NCBI GenBank assembly: GCA_947455725.1
Contig: CANGPL010000005.1
Span: 1-64,000, forward strand
Source of the DNA: Hyphomicrobiales bacterium
Lineage (GTDB): Bacteria; Pseudomonadota; Alphaproteobacteria; Rhizobiales; Beijerinckiaceae
DNA length: 64,000 nt
Direction of reading: 5' to 3'
Shown: positions 29,692 through 50,118 of the stretch, piece after piece
Layout: each line of letters begins with the position of its first letter
How positions within the stretch are numbered: the first letter of the stretch is position 1
The notes under the pieces: generated by a model
What the model saw: the letters and a program-made list of their open reading frames with translations, nothing else
The model's database searches: none
What the model was told of the DNA's origin: nothing
Translations under genes and position numbers: made by a program

Positions 29692-30924
29692 TCAATAGCT
29701 TCCGTCGTTGAGCATTGGCATTGATGTCAGGATAAACTTATCGAAGAAGGGCAGGCAGGCCCCGCCAATCGCGCGCGCCTGATTGCCGACAGTGCCTTCA
29801 ATCAGCTCCGGCGGATTAAGGCCCTGTAAGTCTCGCTTGGCCAGCGCATTGCGGGTTGCCTCAACAAGCCGCAATCGAACATCGGCAGGAAATCCACCGT
29901 CAATAAAGACGGCTGAGAAATCAATGACCGAACACGACCCGACAATGGCATTGGCAAGATATGGGGCAATATCTTGGATCCAACCATCAATATATTCGCC
30001 AAAGCCTGACCAACCATCTGGCTGTTTCCACATCGGGGAAGGATCTACGCCAGCCGCTCGAATTCTCGCCTCGAGATTTGCGGCGGATGCTACCTCAATG
30101 AGCTGTACCGCTTTTCCATCCTGCCCGATAACAGGAAATGACCCGATGGCGCCGGCATTTCCTGACGGGCCCGTAAATACGCCCCCGTTTAAAACGATGC
30201 CGCCACCGATAAAAAATCCGATAAAGAGGTAGAGATAGTTCGTAAATTCATGGCCGCGGCCAAAGACAAATTCGGCTCCGCAAGCCGCCGTAGCATCGTT
30301 TTGAAGATAAACGGGAAAGGGGAAATCGCTGTCGAGGCTATGCACTAAATCGGCTGAGCGCCAGACATCCATCGCGCCTGATGGCGAACCGATCCCAGCT
30401 TCCCACTGCCAAAGGTCAAAGGGTGACGCAATTCCAAGTCCGGCAATTCGTTCGCGCTGCAAGGGTGTCATTTCTGACATGATTTTTGTCACCCCGCGCC
30501 GAGCGAAATCGATGATCGCATCAGGCATGGGCCAAGCGTAGGCTTCACGCATCGAATTACGGACATTGCCTACGAAATCAATGAGAACCAATTCCGCACT
30601 ACGCCGGCCAATTTTAACGCCGAGCGAAAAGGCACCATCATCGGCGAGCGCCATTGGGGTCGAAGGCTGTCCGATTTTTCCCCGTAAAACATTTCCGCGG
30701 TGGAGCAGTCCATCCTCTTCCAAGCGCCGCATAATCACCGAAATGGCTTGCGCTGAGAGGCCTGTAATTCTTGATATTTCAGCCTTTGTTAAGCTGCCAT
30801 GCCGCCGAATAAGAGACAAAAGAAGTCGCTCATTATGAGCACGCACGTCTCCCTGCTTCGACCCGCGCCCTGACGCGCTTAGTCGAACCATCTGGCCGCC
30901 TGACCACTCCGTATAAGTCGACAC
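29692..30924 (-). CDS. frcR: ROK family repressor of the fructose/sugar uptake operon (FrcR-like)
   Basis: NagC/XylR-type regulator (410 aa). The N-terminal winged helix has SLTKAEISRITGLSAQAISV, then IMRRLEEDGLLHRG (about residues 43-77). The ROK sugar-binding domain follows: FFIGGGIVLNGGVFTGPSGN and an upstream FGRGHEF. The cysteine-rich zinc motif of many ROK proteins is not evident. GTG start with GGAGAGG 7 bases upstream. It is divergent from frcB, and a perfect 33-bp palindrome lies between them; the natural reading is a sugar-responsive repressor of frcBCAK. Symbol given by homology of arrangement to the Sinorhizobium frc locus. Confidence 0.85.
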   Translation of the reverse strand: MSTYTEWSGGQMVRLSASGRGSKQGDVRAHNERLLLSLIRRHGSLTKAEISRITGLSAQAISVIMRRLEEDGLLHRGNVLRGKIGQPSTPMALADDGAFSLGVKIGRRSAELVLIDFVGNVRNSMREAYAWPMPDAIIDFARRGVTKIMSEMTPLQRERIAGLGIASPFDLWQWEAGIGSPSGAMDVWRSADLVHSLDSDFPFPVYLQNDATAACGAEFVFGRGHEFTNYLYLFIGFFIGGGIVLNGGVFTGPSGNAGAIGSFPVIGQDGKAVQLIEVASAANLEARIRAAGVDPSPMWKQPDGWSGFGEYIDGWIQDIAPYLANAIVGSCSVIDFSAVFIDGGFPADVRLRLVEATRNALAKRDLQGLNPPELIEGTVGNQARAIGGACLPFFDKFILTSMPMLNDGSY

Positions 30925-30983
30925 TCTGTTTCCTCTCCTGCGCCCCTATTTGGGTTGCAAAATTTACAACACCGAAACAAATC

Positions 30984-31016
30984 TCAATAAATAAATCAAG
31001 TTGATTTATTTATTGA
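30984..31016. promoter_or_regulatory. Perfect 33-bp palindrome, probable FrcR operator
   Basis: Arms TCAATAAATAAATCAA and its exact complement flank a single central G at 31000; all 16 pairs match. AT-rich palindromes of this type are typical operators of ROK repressors such as NagC. The right arm runs into TTGACA (31013-31018), a consensus -35 for frcB, and the left arm overlaps TTGAGA on the opposite strand toward frcR. One bound dimer could repress both genes. No good -10 could be assigned. Confidence 0.85.
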
Positions 31017-31140
31017 CAAGGATTGATTTTCGATGTTCGTTAAGCCTCGAGAACGGGCAAAGGAGAGGTCCTGCGCCCGGAATTCTCGTTCCGTCGAGAC
31101 CGGTGACTAACCGGCTCATATGGCTTTTTGGGAGGTTCTC

Positions 31141-32160
31141 TTGAACAAGACTCTTGTTACTTCTTTGCTCGGCGCCATTGCTATGGGCGCTGTATTCGCT
31201 GCTCCAGCCTATGCTGAAACCGGCGCTTGCTTGATCACCAAGAACAACACAAATCCTTTCTTCGTGAAGATGAAGGAAGGCGCCACGAAGGCTGCTGAAG
31301 CCGCTGGCATCAAGCTCACGGCTGCTGCAGGCGTGAAGGACGGCGATGCTGCACCACAGATCACCGCGATTGAAAACTGCGTTGCTTCGGGCGCTAAGGG
31401 TATCCTTATCACCGCATCGAACGACTCGGTTATTCCTGCGCTCAAGAAGGCCCGCGCTGCTGGCGTTCTCGTTATCGCACTCGACACGCCAATTGGCGAT
31501 AAGGATGCGGCCGATATGACGTTCGCAACCGACAATTTCGAAGCTGGTATCCTCATCGGTAAGTGGGCGAAGGCTACGCTCGGCGATAAGGCGAAGGATG
31601 CCAAGATCGGGATGCTCGACATCAACAAAGACAATATCTCGGTTGACGTTGCACGCGACACGGGCTTCCTCGTCGGCTTCGGCATCGATGTTCCAAACAA
31701 GAAGGTCATGGGTTCTGAAAAGGATCCACGCGTTATCGGCCATCAGTCGTCGGACGCAAATCCTGAAGGCGGCGTGAAGAGCGTTGAAAATCTTCTCGCA
31801 AAAGAGCCTAACATGAACGTCGTTTACACCATCAACGAGCCAGCAGCAGAAGGTGCTTATCAGGCACTTAAGAAGGCTGGTAAGGAAAAGGGTGTCTTGA
31901 TCGTCTCCGTTGACGGTGGCTGCCCAGGTGTGAAGAGCGTTGCTTCGGGCGTTATCGGCGCAACGTCGCAGCAGTATCCGCTGTTGATGGCCTCGAAAGG
32001 CATCGAAGCAATTGCTGCTTTCGCTAAGGACGGCACGAAGCCAAAGGCTTCTGACGGTCTCGACTTCTTCAACACGGGCGTGAACCTCATCACCGATAAG
32101 CCAGCAGCTGGCGTTCCTTCGATCGACTCGAAGGAAGGCACCGCGAAGTGCTGGGGCTAA
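31141..32160 (+). CDS. frcB: Sugar (fructose-type) ABC transporter periplasmic binding protein FrcB
   Basis: Periplasmic binding protein (339 aa) of the ribose/fructose class. A signal peptide ([17 protein letters not shown]) precedes [20 protein letters not shown], then [29 protein letters not shown] and [34 protein letters not shown] and the C-terminal TAKCWG resemble the Sinorhizobium fructose-binding FrcB. TTG at 31141 is the likely start: GGGAGG lies 5 bases before it, whereas the in-frame ATG at 31120 has no SD. Lysine is almost always AAG, suggesting high expression. The actual sugar needs testing. Confidence 0.92.
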
Positions 32161-32191
32161 TCGCTTAAGGCCTGAATTATTAACTTAAATC

Positions 32192-32223
32192 TGTGGGGGG
32201 CGATCATTAGATCGCCCCCCACA
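32192..32223 (+). promoter_or_regulatory. Perfect 14-bp-arm hairpin between frcB and frcC
   Basis: TGTGGGGGGCGATC, loop ATTA, then the exact complementary arm. It is very stable and has no T-tract, so it is more likely an mRNA-stabilising or attenuating hairpin than a terminator. Such structures after binding-protein genes raise their expression above that of the membrane components. Confidence 0.75.
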
Positions 32224-32317
32224 TCGTAAGAAATGCATGACGAACTGCGTTGAATATGTGTAAATTGTCGAAAATTTGCTACGTTATTAGCGCAGTAGAG
32301 ATAACGGGGGAGCGCCT

Positions 32318-33400
32318 ATGAGTGCGAATGCTGGGCCGGAGAAGACGATCTCCGATTTTGAAGCGGTGCTCGAAAAAGCTGACACGTCAGTCGTTGCGTT
32401 TGAGCAGGATCGCAATGGTCCTTTAGACCTCATACGCGATTTTCTGAGAACAAACCCAACGGCCATTCCAGCGGCCGTTCTCCTCATCAGCGTTATCGGT
32501 TTTGGCTTTGTTGCCAATAATTTTCTTAAACTCAGCACGCTATCGCTCGTTCTGCAGCAAGTTACCGTTACGGGCATTGTAGCGATTGCGCAGACGATGA
32601 TTATTCTAACAGCCGGTATTGATTTGGCCGTAGGCCAACTCATGGTGCTGTGCTCGCTCATTATGGGTAAATTAGCCGTTGAGCTTGGCGTTCCCGTTTG
32701 GATAGCGATCGTCATCGGTTTTATCGCTGGCGGAGCGATGGGATGCTTGAATGGTATCTTCGTCGCCTATTGGCGCTTGCCACCCTTTATCGTGACACTC
32801 GGTACGCTCGGTATCTTTAAGACGCTCAAGCTCTGGTATTCAGGGTCAGAGTCCGTTCGCGCCGCCGATATCGAAGAAAAAGCGCCCTTCCTGGACTTTT
32901 TCGGACAGACCATTAAGCTCGGTGCCGGTGCCGAAGTGACCTATGGTGGGATTGCACTTGTACTCACTGCTATTGCTGCGTGGTATGTTCTAAATCGCAC
33001 GCCATGGGGTCGGCACGTTCATGCGGTTGGCGACGATCCTGACTCCGCGCTTCTTGCTGGTATTCAGACCAAGCGAATCTTGTTGTCGGTATATGTTGTC
33101 GCCGGGTTTGTTTGTGCGTTTGGTGCGTGGATCTCAATCGGTCGCGTTGGCACAATTAACCCAGAAAGTTTCGACCAGATCAATCTTGATTCTATTACCG
33201 CGACTGTGATCGGCGGAACGTCATTGTTTGGTGGCCGTGGGTCGCTGTTTGGATCCGTTCTTGGTGCTTTGATCGTCGGTGTTTTCTCGACTGGTCTCGC
33301 ATTGGCTGGTGTTGATTCTTATTGGCAGTATCTAACCATTGGCGTGTTGATCATTCTCGCCGTTGCAGTTGATCAATGGTTGCGGAGGGCTTCGCAATGA
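32318..33400 (+). CDS. frcC: Sugar ABC transporter permease FrcC
   Basis: Inner-membrane permease (360 aa) of the ribose/xylose/fructose ABC class. After a 40-residue cytoplasmic N-terminus there are about nine to ten hydrophobic helices. Family marks are ILTAGIDLAVGQLMVLCSLI, PPFIVTLGTLGIFKTL and TVIGGTSLFGGRGSLFGSVL. SD GGGGGAG is close to the ATG. It is separated from frcB by a 157-bp gap holding the hairpin; its end overlaps frcA by four bases. Confidence 0.93.
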   Translation: MSANAGPEKTISDFEAVLEKADTSVVAFEQDRNGPLDLIRDFLRTNPTAIPAAVLLISVIGFGFVANNFLKLSTLSLVLQQVTVTGIVAIAQTMIILTAGIDLAVGQLMVLCSLIMGKLAVELGVPVWIAIVIGFIAGGAMGCLNGIFVAYWRLPPFIVTLGTLGIFKTLKLWYSGSESVRAADIEEKAPFLDFFGQTIKLGAGAEVTYGGIALVLTAIAAWYVLNRTPWGRHVHAVGDDPDSALLAGIQTKRILLSVYVVAGFVCAFGAWISIGRVGTINPESFDQINLDSITATVIGGTSLFGGRGSLFGSVLGALIVGVFSTGLALAGVDSYWQYLTIGVLIILAVAVDQWLRRASQ

Positions 33401-34185
33401 CAAAACAACAACCTGTTCTTGAGGCCCGTGGTCTCTCCAAGCGCTATGGCCATGTTGTTGCGCTTAACAATGCGGATTTTGATTTATATCCTGGCGAAAT
33501 TCTTGCCGTTATTGGCGATAATGGCGCTGGCAAGACAACACTGATCAAAGCTCTGACGGGCGCTATTACACCTGATCACGGTGAAATCCGTTTGAACGGC
33601 GAGGCTGTACATTTCCGTTCGCCGCAGGATGCACGCGCGGCCGGTATCGAAACGGTGTATCAAAATCTTGCGCTTTCTCCTGCACTTTCCATCGCTGAAA
33701 ATATGTTCCTCGGTCGTGAGCGTTTGAAACCCGGACTATTGGGTAAATTATTTTATACGCTTGATCGTTCTGGAATGAACAGTTTCGCTCGCCAGAAACT
33801 GAGCGAACTCGGCTTGTTGACGATCCAAAATATCGAGCAACCTGTTGAATCTTTATCAGGTGGCCAGCGCCAAGGTGTTGCTGTTGCTCGTGCTGCTGCT
33901 TTCGGATCGCGGGTTATCATTATGGATGAGCCGACGGCGGCGTTGGGTGTTAAGGAATCGCGCCGCGTTCTAGAACTCATTCTCGACGTTAAAAAGCGTG
34001 GATTACCGATTGTCTTGATCTCGCACAACATGCCTCATGTGTTTGAGGTGGCTGACCGCATCCATATTAATCGGCTGGGTCGTCGCCTCTGCGTGATCAA
34101 TCCGAAGGATTACACGATGGCTGATGCGGTTGCGTTTATGACGGGCGCTAAAGAGCCTCCTCCTGAAGTCGTTGCAGCCGCTTGA
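33397..34185 (+). CDS. frcA: Sugar ABC transporter ATP-binding protein FrcA
   Basis: Single-domain ABC ATPase (262 aa), unlike the double-domain RbsA/XylG type. Walker A is IGDNGAGKTTLIKALTG, the signature LSGGQRQGVAVARAAAFG, and Walker B VIIMDEPTAALG. LISHNMPHVFEVADRIHI is the switch region. Start ATG 33397 overlaps the frcC stop (ATGA), with GGAGGG 8 bases upstream; an in-frame GTG at 33376 is less likely. It powers the FrcB-FrcC importer. Confidence 0.93.
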   Translation: MTKQQPVLEARGLSKRYGHVVALNNADFDLYPGEILAVIGDNGAGKTTLIKALTGAITPDHGEIRLNGEAVHFRSPQDARAAGIETVYQNLALSPALSIAENMFLGRERLKPGLLGKLFYTLDRSGMNSFARQKLSELGLLTIQNIEQPVESLSGGQRQGVAVARAAAFGSRVIIMDEPTAALGVKESRRVLELILDVKKRGLPIVLISHNMPHVFEVADRIHINRLGRRLCVINPKDYTMADAVAFMTGAKEPPPEVVAAA

Positions 34186-34191
34186 TCTCTC

Positions 34192-34830
34192 GTGTCTGAT
34201 CTACAGGCCGTCGTCGATCATCTAACCGGAATCATCCGTGATCGTGATGATGGCCATGCGCGCCAATTAATCGCGATTGCGGGTCCGCCGGGGGCGGGAA
34301 AAAGCACGGTAGCTGAAGCGCTCGTTGAGCAACTTAACATATTTATTCCCGATAGACCTGCAGAGGTCGTTCCGATGGACGGCTTCCATTTCGATAATGC
34401 CATTCTTGATGAGCGAGGTTGGCGCGCCCGCAAAGGTGCGCCCGAGACCTTCGACATTGGTGGCTTTTCATCTTTGTTGCGGCGCTTAAAAAGTGAGCCA
34501 GGTGATATTGCGATACCAGTCTTTGACCGGGGTTCTGATTTAGCGCGGGCTTCCGCGCGAATTGTGCGAAGCGATCAAAGACTTTTGATCGTTGAAGGAA
34601 ATTATCTTCTTCTTGATAGACCCCATTGGAGCGATCTTTTCCCGCTTTTTGATCTGACCATCTTTTTAAAGCCATCTATCGAAACAATTGAACAGCGCCT
34701 CATTCAACGTTGGCTCGATTATGGGCTCGATCATCCATCAGCAATCGCGCGTGCAAGGGGAAATGATCTTGCCAATGCGCGGATTATCTTATCCGAAAGC
34801 CGCTCTGCGAATATCGTCGTGCAGGATTGA
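34192..34830 (+). CDS. frcK: FrcK-like P-loop kinase
   Basis: P-loop kinase (212 aa) of the uridine kinase / pantothenate kinase-like group. Walker A is IAGPPGAGKSTVAEALVEQL (residues 28-47). VVPMDGFHFDNAILDERGWR and LLIVEGNYLLLDRPHWSDLF are the family substrate and lid regions. In Sinorhizobium the fourth gene of the frc operon encodes such a kinase, presumed to phosphorylate the imported sugar; this has not been firmly shown. GTG start 6 bp after the frcA stop. Confidence 0.85.
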   Translation: MSDLQAVVDHLTGIIRDRDDGHARQLIAIAGPPGAGKSTVAEALVEQLNIFIPDRPAEVVPMDGFHFDNAILDERGWRARKGAPETFDIGGFSSLLRRLKSEPGDIAIPVFDRGSDLARASARIVRSDQRLLIVEGNYLLLDRPHWSDLFPLFDLTIFLKPSIETIEQRLIQRWLDYGLDHPSAIARARGNDLANARIILSESRSANIVVQD

Positions 34831-50081: not shown

Positions 50082-50118
50082 AACACCCCGCGCCTCATCG
50101 GCGCGGGGTGTTTTGTTT
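50082..50118 (+). terminator. Rho-independent terminator after acs
   Basis: Perfect 13-bp stem AACACCCCGCGCC (50082-50094) and GGCGCGGGGTGTT (50100-50112) with loop TCATC, followed by TTGTTTT. It starts 23 bases after the acs stop codon. Confidence 0.93.

Follow-up and report, generated by a model that had tools for sequence, protein, structure and literature searches.

A Conserved Palindrome Between a ROK-Family Regulator Gene and the frcBCA-K Operon Is Probably a Single Operator for Both

The frc Locus

The stretch of 64,000 nucleotides analyzed here (the window) harbors a sugar operon with the gene order frcB-frcC-frcA-frcK and, divergent from it, a ROK-family gene encoding a winged helix-turn-helix protein, frcR (Table 1). 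The two are separated by a gap of 216 bp, which contains an inverted repeat that overlaps promoter elements, the -35 boxes being sequence matches. Translation of frcB most likely starts at the TTG codon at 31141, which follows GGGAGG and is replaced by an ATG at the equivalent position in one relative (L030), while an in-frame ATG at 31120 is an alternative start. The frcB leader adjoining the start codon (31078-31140) shows good conservation within the genus and contains a small predicted hairpin (GAGACCGG...CCGGCTC). A strong hairpin with perfect 14-bp arms, a loop of 4 and no T-run is located between frcB and frcC (32192-32223; -32.6 kcal/mol and z = -7.1 for the region 32180-32245), which perhaps serves as an mRNA end protector that favors frcB over frcC.

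Table 1. Genes, putative operator and promoter elements of the frc locus (positions in the window).
Feature	Coordinates	Strand	Remarks
frcR	29692..30924	-	ROK-family regulator, winged helix-turn-helix, 410 aa
Candidate -10 AATTTT, frcR	30959..30964	-	spacing 17; weak; not kept within genus
-35-like TTGAGA, toward frcR	30982..30987	-	sequence match, weaker than frcB-side TTGACA
Perfect palindrome	30984..31016	.	16-bp arms centered on G31000
Operator core AATAAATAAATC-AAGTT-GATTTATTTATT	30986..31014	.	conserved; putative ROK-dimer binding site
-35 hexamer TTGACA, toward frcB	31013..31018	+	sequence match, strong
Candidate -10 TTCGTT, frcB	31036..31041	+	spacing 17; weak; aligns with TTTGAT-like hexamers of relatives
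frcB	31141..32160	+	sugar-binding protein; TTG start likely
frcC	32318..33400	+	permease
frcA	33376..34185	+	ABC ATPase
frcK-like	34192..34830	+	P-loop kinase

The Palindrome and Its Uniqueness

The inverted repeat reads TCAATAAATAAATCAA-G-TTGATTTATTTATTGA and is exact, all 16 pairs around G31000 being matched as originally described. When spacers of 0-6 were scanned, it proved to be the longest perfect inverted repeat of the window. The claim that such symmetry is far beyond chance was borne out by order-1 Markov simulation of the gap (30925-31143), where an arm of at least 12 occurred in 0/4000 simulations; with the AT-rich block 30955-31030 as the sole source, arms of at least 12 occurred in 2/4000 and of at least 16 in 1/4000, so that the palindrome remains well beyond chance. 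The three closest distinct relatives (L007, L026, and L027), whose ROK proteins are 87-89% identical, carry one mismatch, a T at base 2 of the left arm; the perfect 33 bp are therefore specific to the source genome and the perfection of the palindrome is, as judged from these sequences, incidental. Elsewhere in the window, a second perfect inverted repeat, which is GC-rich and has 13-bp arms with a spacer of 5, is found at 50082-50112.

A search with a profile of the site detected no further copy in the window at E<=5, which agrees with the original remark that none was seen in the downstream gaps before the reductase or aldolase genes. In the source genome, the assembly of which is 90.5% complete, the spacer site was matched with E = 1.8e-10 and the runner-up, which lies within an open frame, with E = 0.125. 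The genome scan for half-sites that had been proposed as a means of finding other regulon members was run, but did not deliver them: allowing up to two mismatches in the 16-base half-site, it returned three further, imperfect places (1, 2, and 2 mismatches), no more than chance given the two obtained with a reversed control. These half-sites and the profile matches with E 0.125-2.7 were considered as a wider regulon in the source genome and rejected, as both were read as chance. The spacer palindrome is hence the sole convincing site in the source genome, and with the surrounding genes inspected for the best of the weaker matches (L122), the regulon seems to be local, consisting of frcR and frcBCA-K.

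Conservation of the Site in Loci With a Related ROK Gene

Upstream DNA of the ROK gene, to a distance of at most 700 bp, was scanned in 59 loci that carry a ROK relative (57 distinct, as L028 and L029 duplicate L007 and L008), using a symmetric matrix that was refined from four seed sites and a threshold score of 24. The original prediction was to be abandoned if relatives with the same ROK gene lacked the palindrome, which proved not to be the case: a site scoring at least 24 was found upstream of the ROK gene in 50/59 loci (48/57 distinct), although these positives are partly circular, because the spacers searched were also those used to fit the matrix. At the same score, 0/106 chunks from inside or beyond genes and 0/295 shuffled spacers were positive. 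The loci below the threshold are L016, L019, L020, L046, L052, L053, L062, L063, and L064, among which L020 has a contig end inside the apparent site, and L063 and L064, whose ROK proteins are only distantly related (34% and 40%), have rhamnose-type operons next to the ROK gene. Alignment of the spacers across relatives, also suggested at the outset, placed the longest invariant run of six related genomes (17 columns) in the palindrome, and among the fetched loci the core is kept down to about 42% ROK identity.

The ROK proteins of these loci share features of their own. In the window's protein, the wHTH is followed by the linker RGKIGQP, and RGxxGQP is present in 55/59 loci. ROK proteins usually carry the cysteine motif CxCGxxGC, which was counted in the aligned protein frame in 0/59 FrcR-type loci, the window's included. 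A further stretch, GxAGExGH, is typical of sugar-binding ROK proteins; at its position the FrcR-type proteins mostly have GNAGAxGS, and none of the 48 loci with a recognizable stretch has either the E or the H. Ligand binding may differ in this clade. Against NCBIfam, the window's ROK protein reaches 53 bits with the NagC model (cut-off 650) and 42 bits with the Mlc model (cut-off 530), and with scores below the cut-offs and no cysteine motif it would not be classified as a NagC or Mlc equivalog.

The Probable Operator Core and the Two -35 Boxes

The conserved unit, AATAAnTAAATC-N5-GATTTAnTTATT (30986-31014), is about 29 bp long and thus shorter than the palindrome. In a 37-column frame of 36 distinct ungapped sites, the core columns 5-7, 9, 11-13, 15, and 16 and their mirrors are identical in 30-36/36 sites; left out of this frame were sites scoring <24, one with an N, identical sites and nine loci shifted by one base (L012, L016, L033, L037, L038, L039, L045, L053, and L061). 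The outer bases G, A, and C on the frcB side are present in 36/36 sites each and their mirror bases on the frcR side in 22, 26, and 19 of 36, and in several loci the outer hexamer is displaced by one base relative to the core. As the outer hexamers are conserved unequally and are shifted in this way, the site is read as a core that measures about 29 bp and passes at either end into a -35 box, with the outermost bases of the palindrome probably belonging to the promoters. Covariation between mirror positions in the same frame is slight (2/18 pairs at p<0.01), which counts against the operator reading.

Both overlaps that had been described, with TTGACA toward frcB and with TTGAGA toward frcR, were found. 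Since one site touches both -35 boxes, the idea of a single operator for frcR and frcB gains support and is refined to the 29-bp core. Promoter hexamers were counted in 47/59 loci, leaving aside L026, L028, L029, and the nine loci scoring <24: TTGAC is present on the frcB side in 47/47 sites, and in the arrangement TTGACA-N17-TnnnnT the hexamer at spacing 17 has the first T in 28/47 and the last T in 37/47. On the frcR side, the pattern is weaker (second base A in 26/47, last base T in 24/47). A consensus scan of 30850-31200 for promoters and terminators returned nothing, the candidate -10 TTCGTT included, and this counts against the operator reading, as do the weak -10 hexamers of the window. 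An RNA element was considered and rejected, as the leader 31017-31141 folds hardly better than shuffled sequences (z = -1.09) and the palindrome would be untranscribed if the proposed promoters hold.

Co-occurrence of Site and ROK Gene

For comparison across bacteria, whole genomes were searched with a sequence-only profile of 28 sites, which was built from sites of the family and order sets, and a ROK gene was counted at E<=1e-60; the family, order, and class sets share a few genomes. At E<=1e-3, the site was detected in 16/19 genomes with and 0/80 genomes without the ROK gene in the family set (99 genomes), in 44/56 with and 3/143 without in the order set (199 genomes; Fisher p = 2e-29), and, by hand count, in 11/13 with and 2/276 without in the class set (289 genomes). 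In the class set, the site of G341 is on a different contig from the ROK gene and that of G510 about 1 kb away, leaving 9/13 within 700 bp. The motif thus tracks the ROK gene: most genomes that have the gene also have the site, which is rare in genomes that lack the gene.

There are exceptions on both sides. Weaker matches (E 0.04-0.08) occur in 3/80 family genomes without the ROK gene (G018, G039, and G059), and six order-set genomes without it match at E<=0.02, four of them being 1.3-1.4 Mb genomes of one family. Conversely, three family genomes have the ROK gene and no site match (G003, G023, where the contig ends, and G095). Among order-level ROK genes that had not been fetched before the model was built, 24/39 have a site at most 700 bp upstream at E<=0.02, namely 19/24 of those with at least 40% identity and 5/15 of those below, compared to 27/30 of the fetched genes; the genes without a site at this cut-off (15/39 unfetched, 3/30 fetched) include second copies and distant paralogs.

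The Same Core Upstream of Other Operons

The site is also found next to operons of other types. In G037 and G045, it separates the ROK gene from a ribose-type ABC operon, and the operon of G037 has an frcK-like gene downstream. ROK genes with 40-43% identity in G115, G126, and G122 have sites before a gene for a substrate-binding protein; downstream of this gene, G115 and G126 have ABC genes and genes for a short-chain and a mannitol dehydrogenase, and G122 has, within the stretch taken, ABC genes only. The operons of G115 and G126, here labeled smo-like, resemble smoEFGK-smoS-mtlK of Sinorhizobium meliloti, where SmoS and MtlK are described as oxidizing sorbitol and mannitol to fructose (PMC10433430). 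G115 has another site, the first, which precedes a PfkB-type kinase gene (best NCBIfam match fructokinase, below the cut-off), and in G153 the site has an ABC operon on one side and, on the other, a gene for a GDSL hydrolase with a ROK gene after it. The regulators of the frc and the other operons might share fructose, or one of its products, as their ligand. A GH32 fructan hydrolase was considered as a second target in G045 (site at L121 5001-5031) and dropped, as the gene starts about 810 bp away; moreover, the DNA after this site resembles, by eye, the beginning of the transporter gene found at G045's main site, so it may be a decayed duplicate of that promoter region.

A different ROK gene, encoding a protein of 26% identity, has a similar, weaker site upstream in two genomes (L119 and L120, 5001-5029 each; 18.6 bits), and the motif is therefore not exclusive. 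In L119, this protein contains CxCGxxGC and its gene adjoins a divergent gene for a sugar-binding protein. It is tempting to speculate, as a suggestion that falls somewhat short of even chances, that the FrcR-type ROK proteins are an alphaproteobacterial clade without the usual cysteine motif, which reads the operator code TAAATC-N5-GATTTA over frc, smo/mtlK-like polyol and rbs-type ABC operons (one with frcK) that meet at fructose. If true, a small fructose regulon would be predictable from sequence, and the ends of its operator would incorporate two -35 boxes.

Proposed Mechanism and Alternatives

The palindrome very probably serves the divergent, FrcR-type ROK repressor as its sole, autoregulatory operator, covering the promoters of both frcB and frcR. 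This reading is carried by direct observations: the palindrome exists, overlaps both -35 boxes, is conserved, occurs together with the ROK gene and is nearly unique in the genome. A ROK dimer would bind the symmetric core of about 29 bp and, because the core runs into both -35 hexamers, would exclude RNA polymerase from frcB and frcR alike, so that one bound dimer would repress the two genes together until a ligand, in all likelihood fructose or something closely derived from it, releases the dimer. By analogy with the known frc locus, fructose would be both the transported sugar and the inducer. The linker RGKIGQP would fit minor-groove reading of the AT-rich arms, a role that is attributed in ROK proteins to linkers rich in Arg and Gly (PMC9104551).

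An unlikely, though not negligible, alternative is that the ROK protein binds here mainly for its own control and affects frcB only mildly, with fructose induction acting at another promoter before frcC. This would agree with S. meliloti, where frcB is reported to be constitutive and an inducible promoter to precede frcCAK (PMC10433430, citing Mauchline 2006), and with the strong hairpin that parts frcB from frcC in the window, yet no part of the site is better conserved than the TTGACA on the frcB side, and neither in the window nor in S. meliloti does the frcB-frcC gap contain a second site at E<=5. The ROK gene could also be a mere neighbor of a site that is targeted by another regulator, as binding by its product is predicted from sequence, a few genomes have sites without it and the ROK protein of 26% identity has a similar one; this is very improbable, since site and gene co-occur in family, order and class, also where the neighboring operon is not frc.

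At least as improbable, and if anything slightly more so, is an origin of the symmetry mostly in two face-to-face -35 regions and AT-rich upstream DNA, with no protein operator involved. The ends of the palindrome are indeed TTGACA and TTGAGA, and several loci have the outer hexamer one base out of register with the core, but the inner TAAATC-N5-GATTTA is not part of the hexamers, shows conservation in both arms (30-36/36 per core column) and is kept where the frcR-side hexamer is lost, for example in S. meliloti. Control of frcB and frcR from one operator remains the preferred reading.

Comparison With Known Systems

NagC and Mlc of Escherichia coli are likewise ROK repressors, their sites are AT-rich palindromes and they act at many sites. 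Both models match the window's protein far below their cut-offs, and in contrast to NagC and Mlc, this regulator seems to be local and, as in 59/59 FrcR-type loci, is without their CxCGxxGC. A further known system is XylR with the xyl operator of Bacillus/Paenibacillus, where a ROK repressor with an Arg/Gly-rich linker acts on a bidirectional promoter and, in P. polymyxa, a 29-nt palindrome is reported (PMC9104551). The XylR half-site is GTTT-N7-AAAC, in contrast to TAAATC-N5-GATTTA here, and both the sugar and the cargo genes are different.

Among the closest known systems is also the frcRS / frcB-frcCAK locus of S. meliloti, which has the same gene order, a divergent ROK gene whose product is 52% identical, and the same operator core with TTGACA in its spacer; FrcB, FrcC, FrcA, and FrcK of the window are 61, 48, 79, and 49% identical to their counterparts. 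The names frcA, frcC, and frcB are also given to the neighbors in a Neorhizobium record, and FrcR to the ROK gene in a Marinovum record. The S. meliloti locus differs in a left arm of the site that degenerates outside the core, in the loss of the hexamer toward frcR, in a longer gap and in an RbsD/FucU gene after the ROK gene, the latter fitting the description of frcRS in PMC10433430. The S. meliloti record is labeled pSymB and FrcR bears the tag SMc02172 (PMC3484140), therefore the label is suspected to be wrong. FrcR of S. meliloti is described as a putative negative regulator, while the constitutive expression reported for frcB in the same source cuts against strict repression there (PMC10433430), and the motif makes this report directly testable. 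A literature search of listings and passages recognized no paper with an FrcR operator motif, and four motif strings gave none, although RegPrecise may hold one.

The analysis thus provides an operator motif that can be put to use for a regulator with an established name but few studies. In about one fifth of the order genomes sampled (44/199 with gene and site), this motif marks the promoter of the regulator itself. Rather than a new kind of system, the locus represents a type of switch that is well known in bacteria, with an operator motif that is common to many related bacteria.
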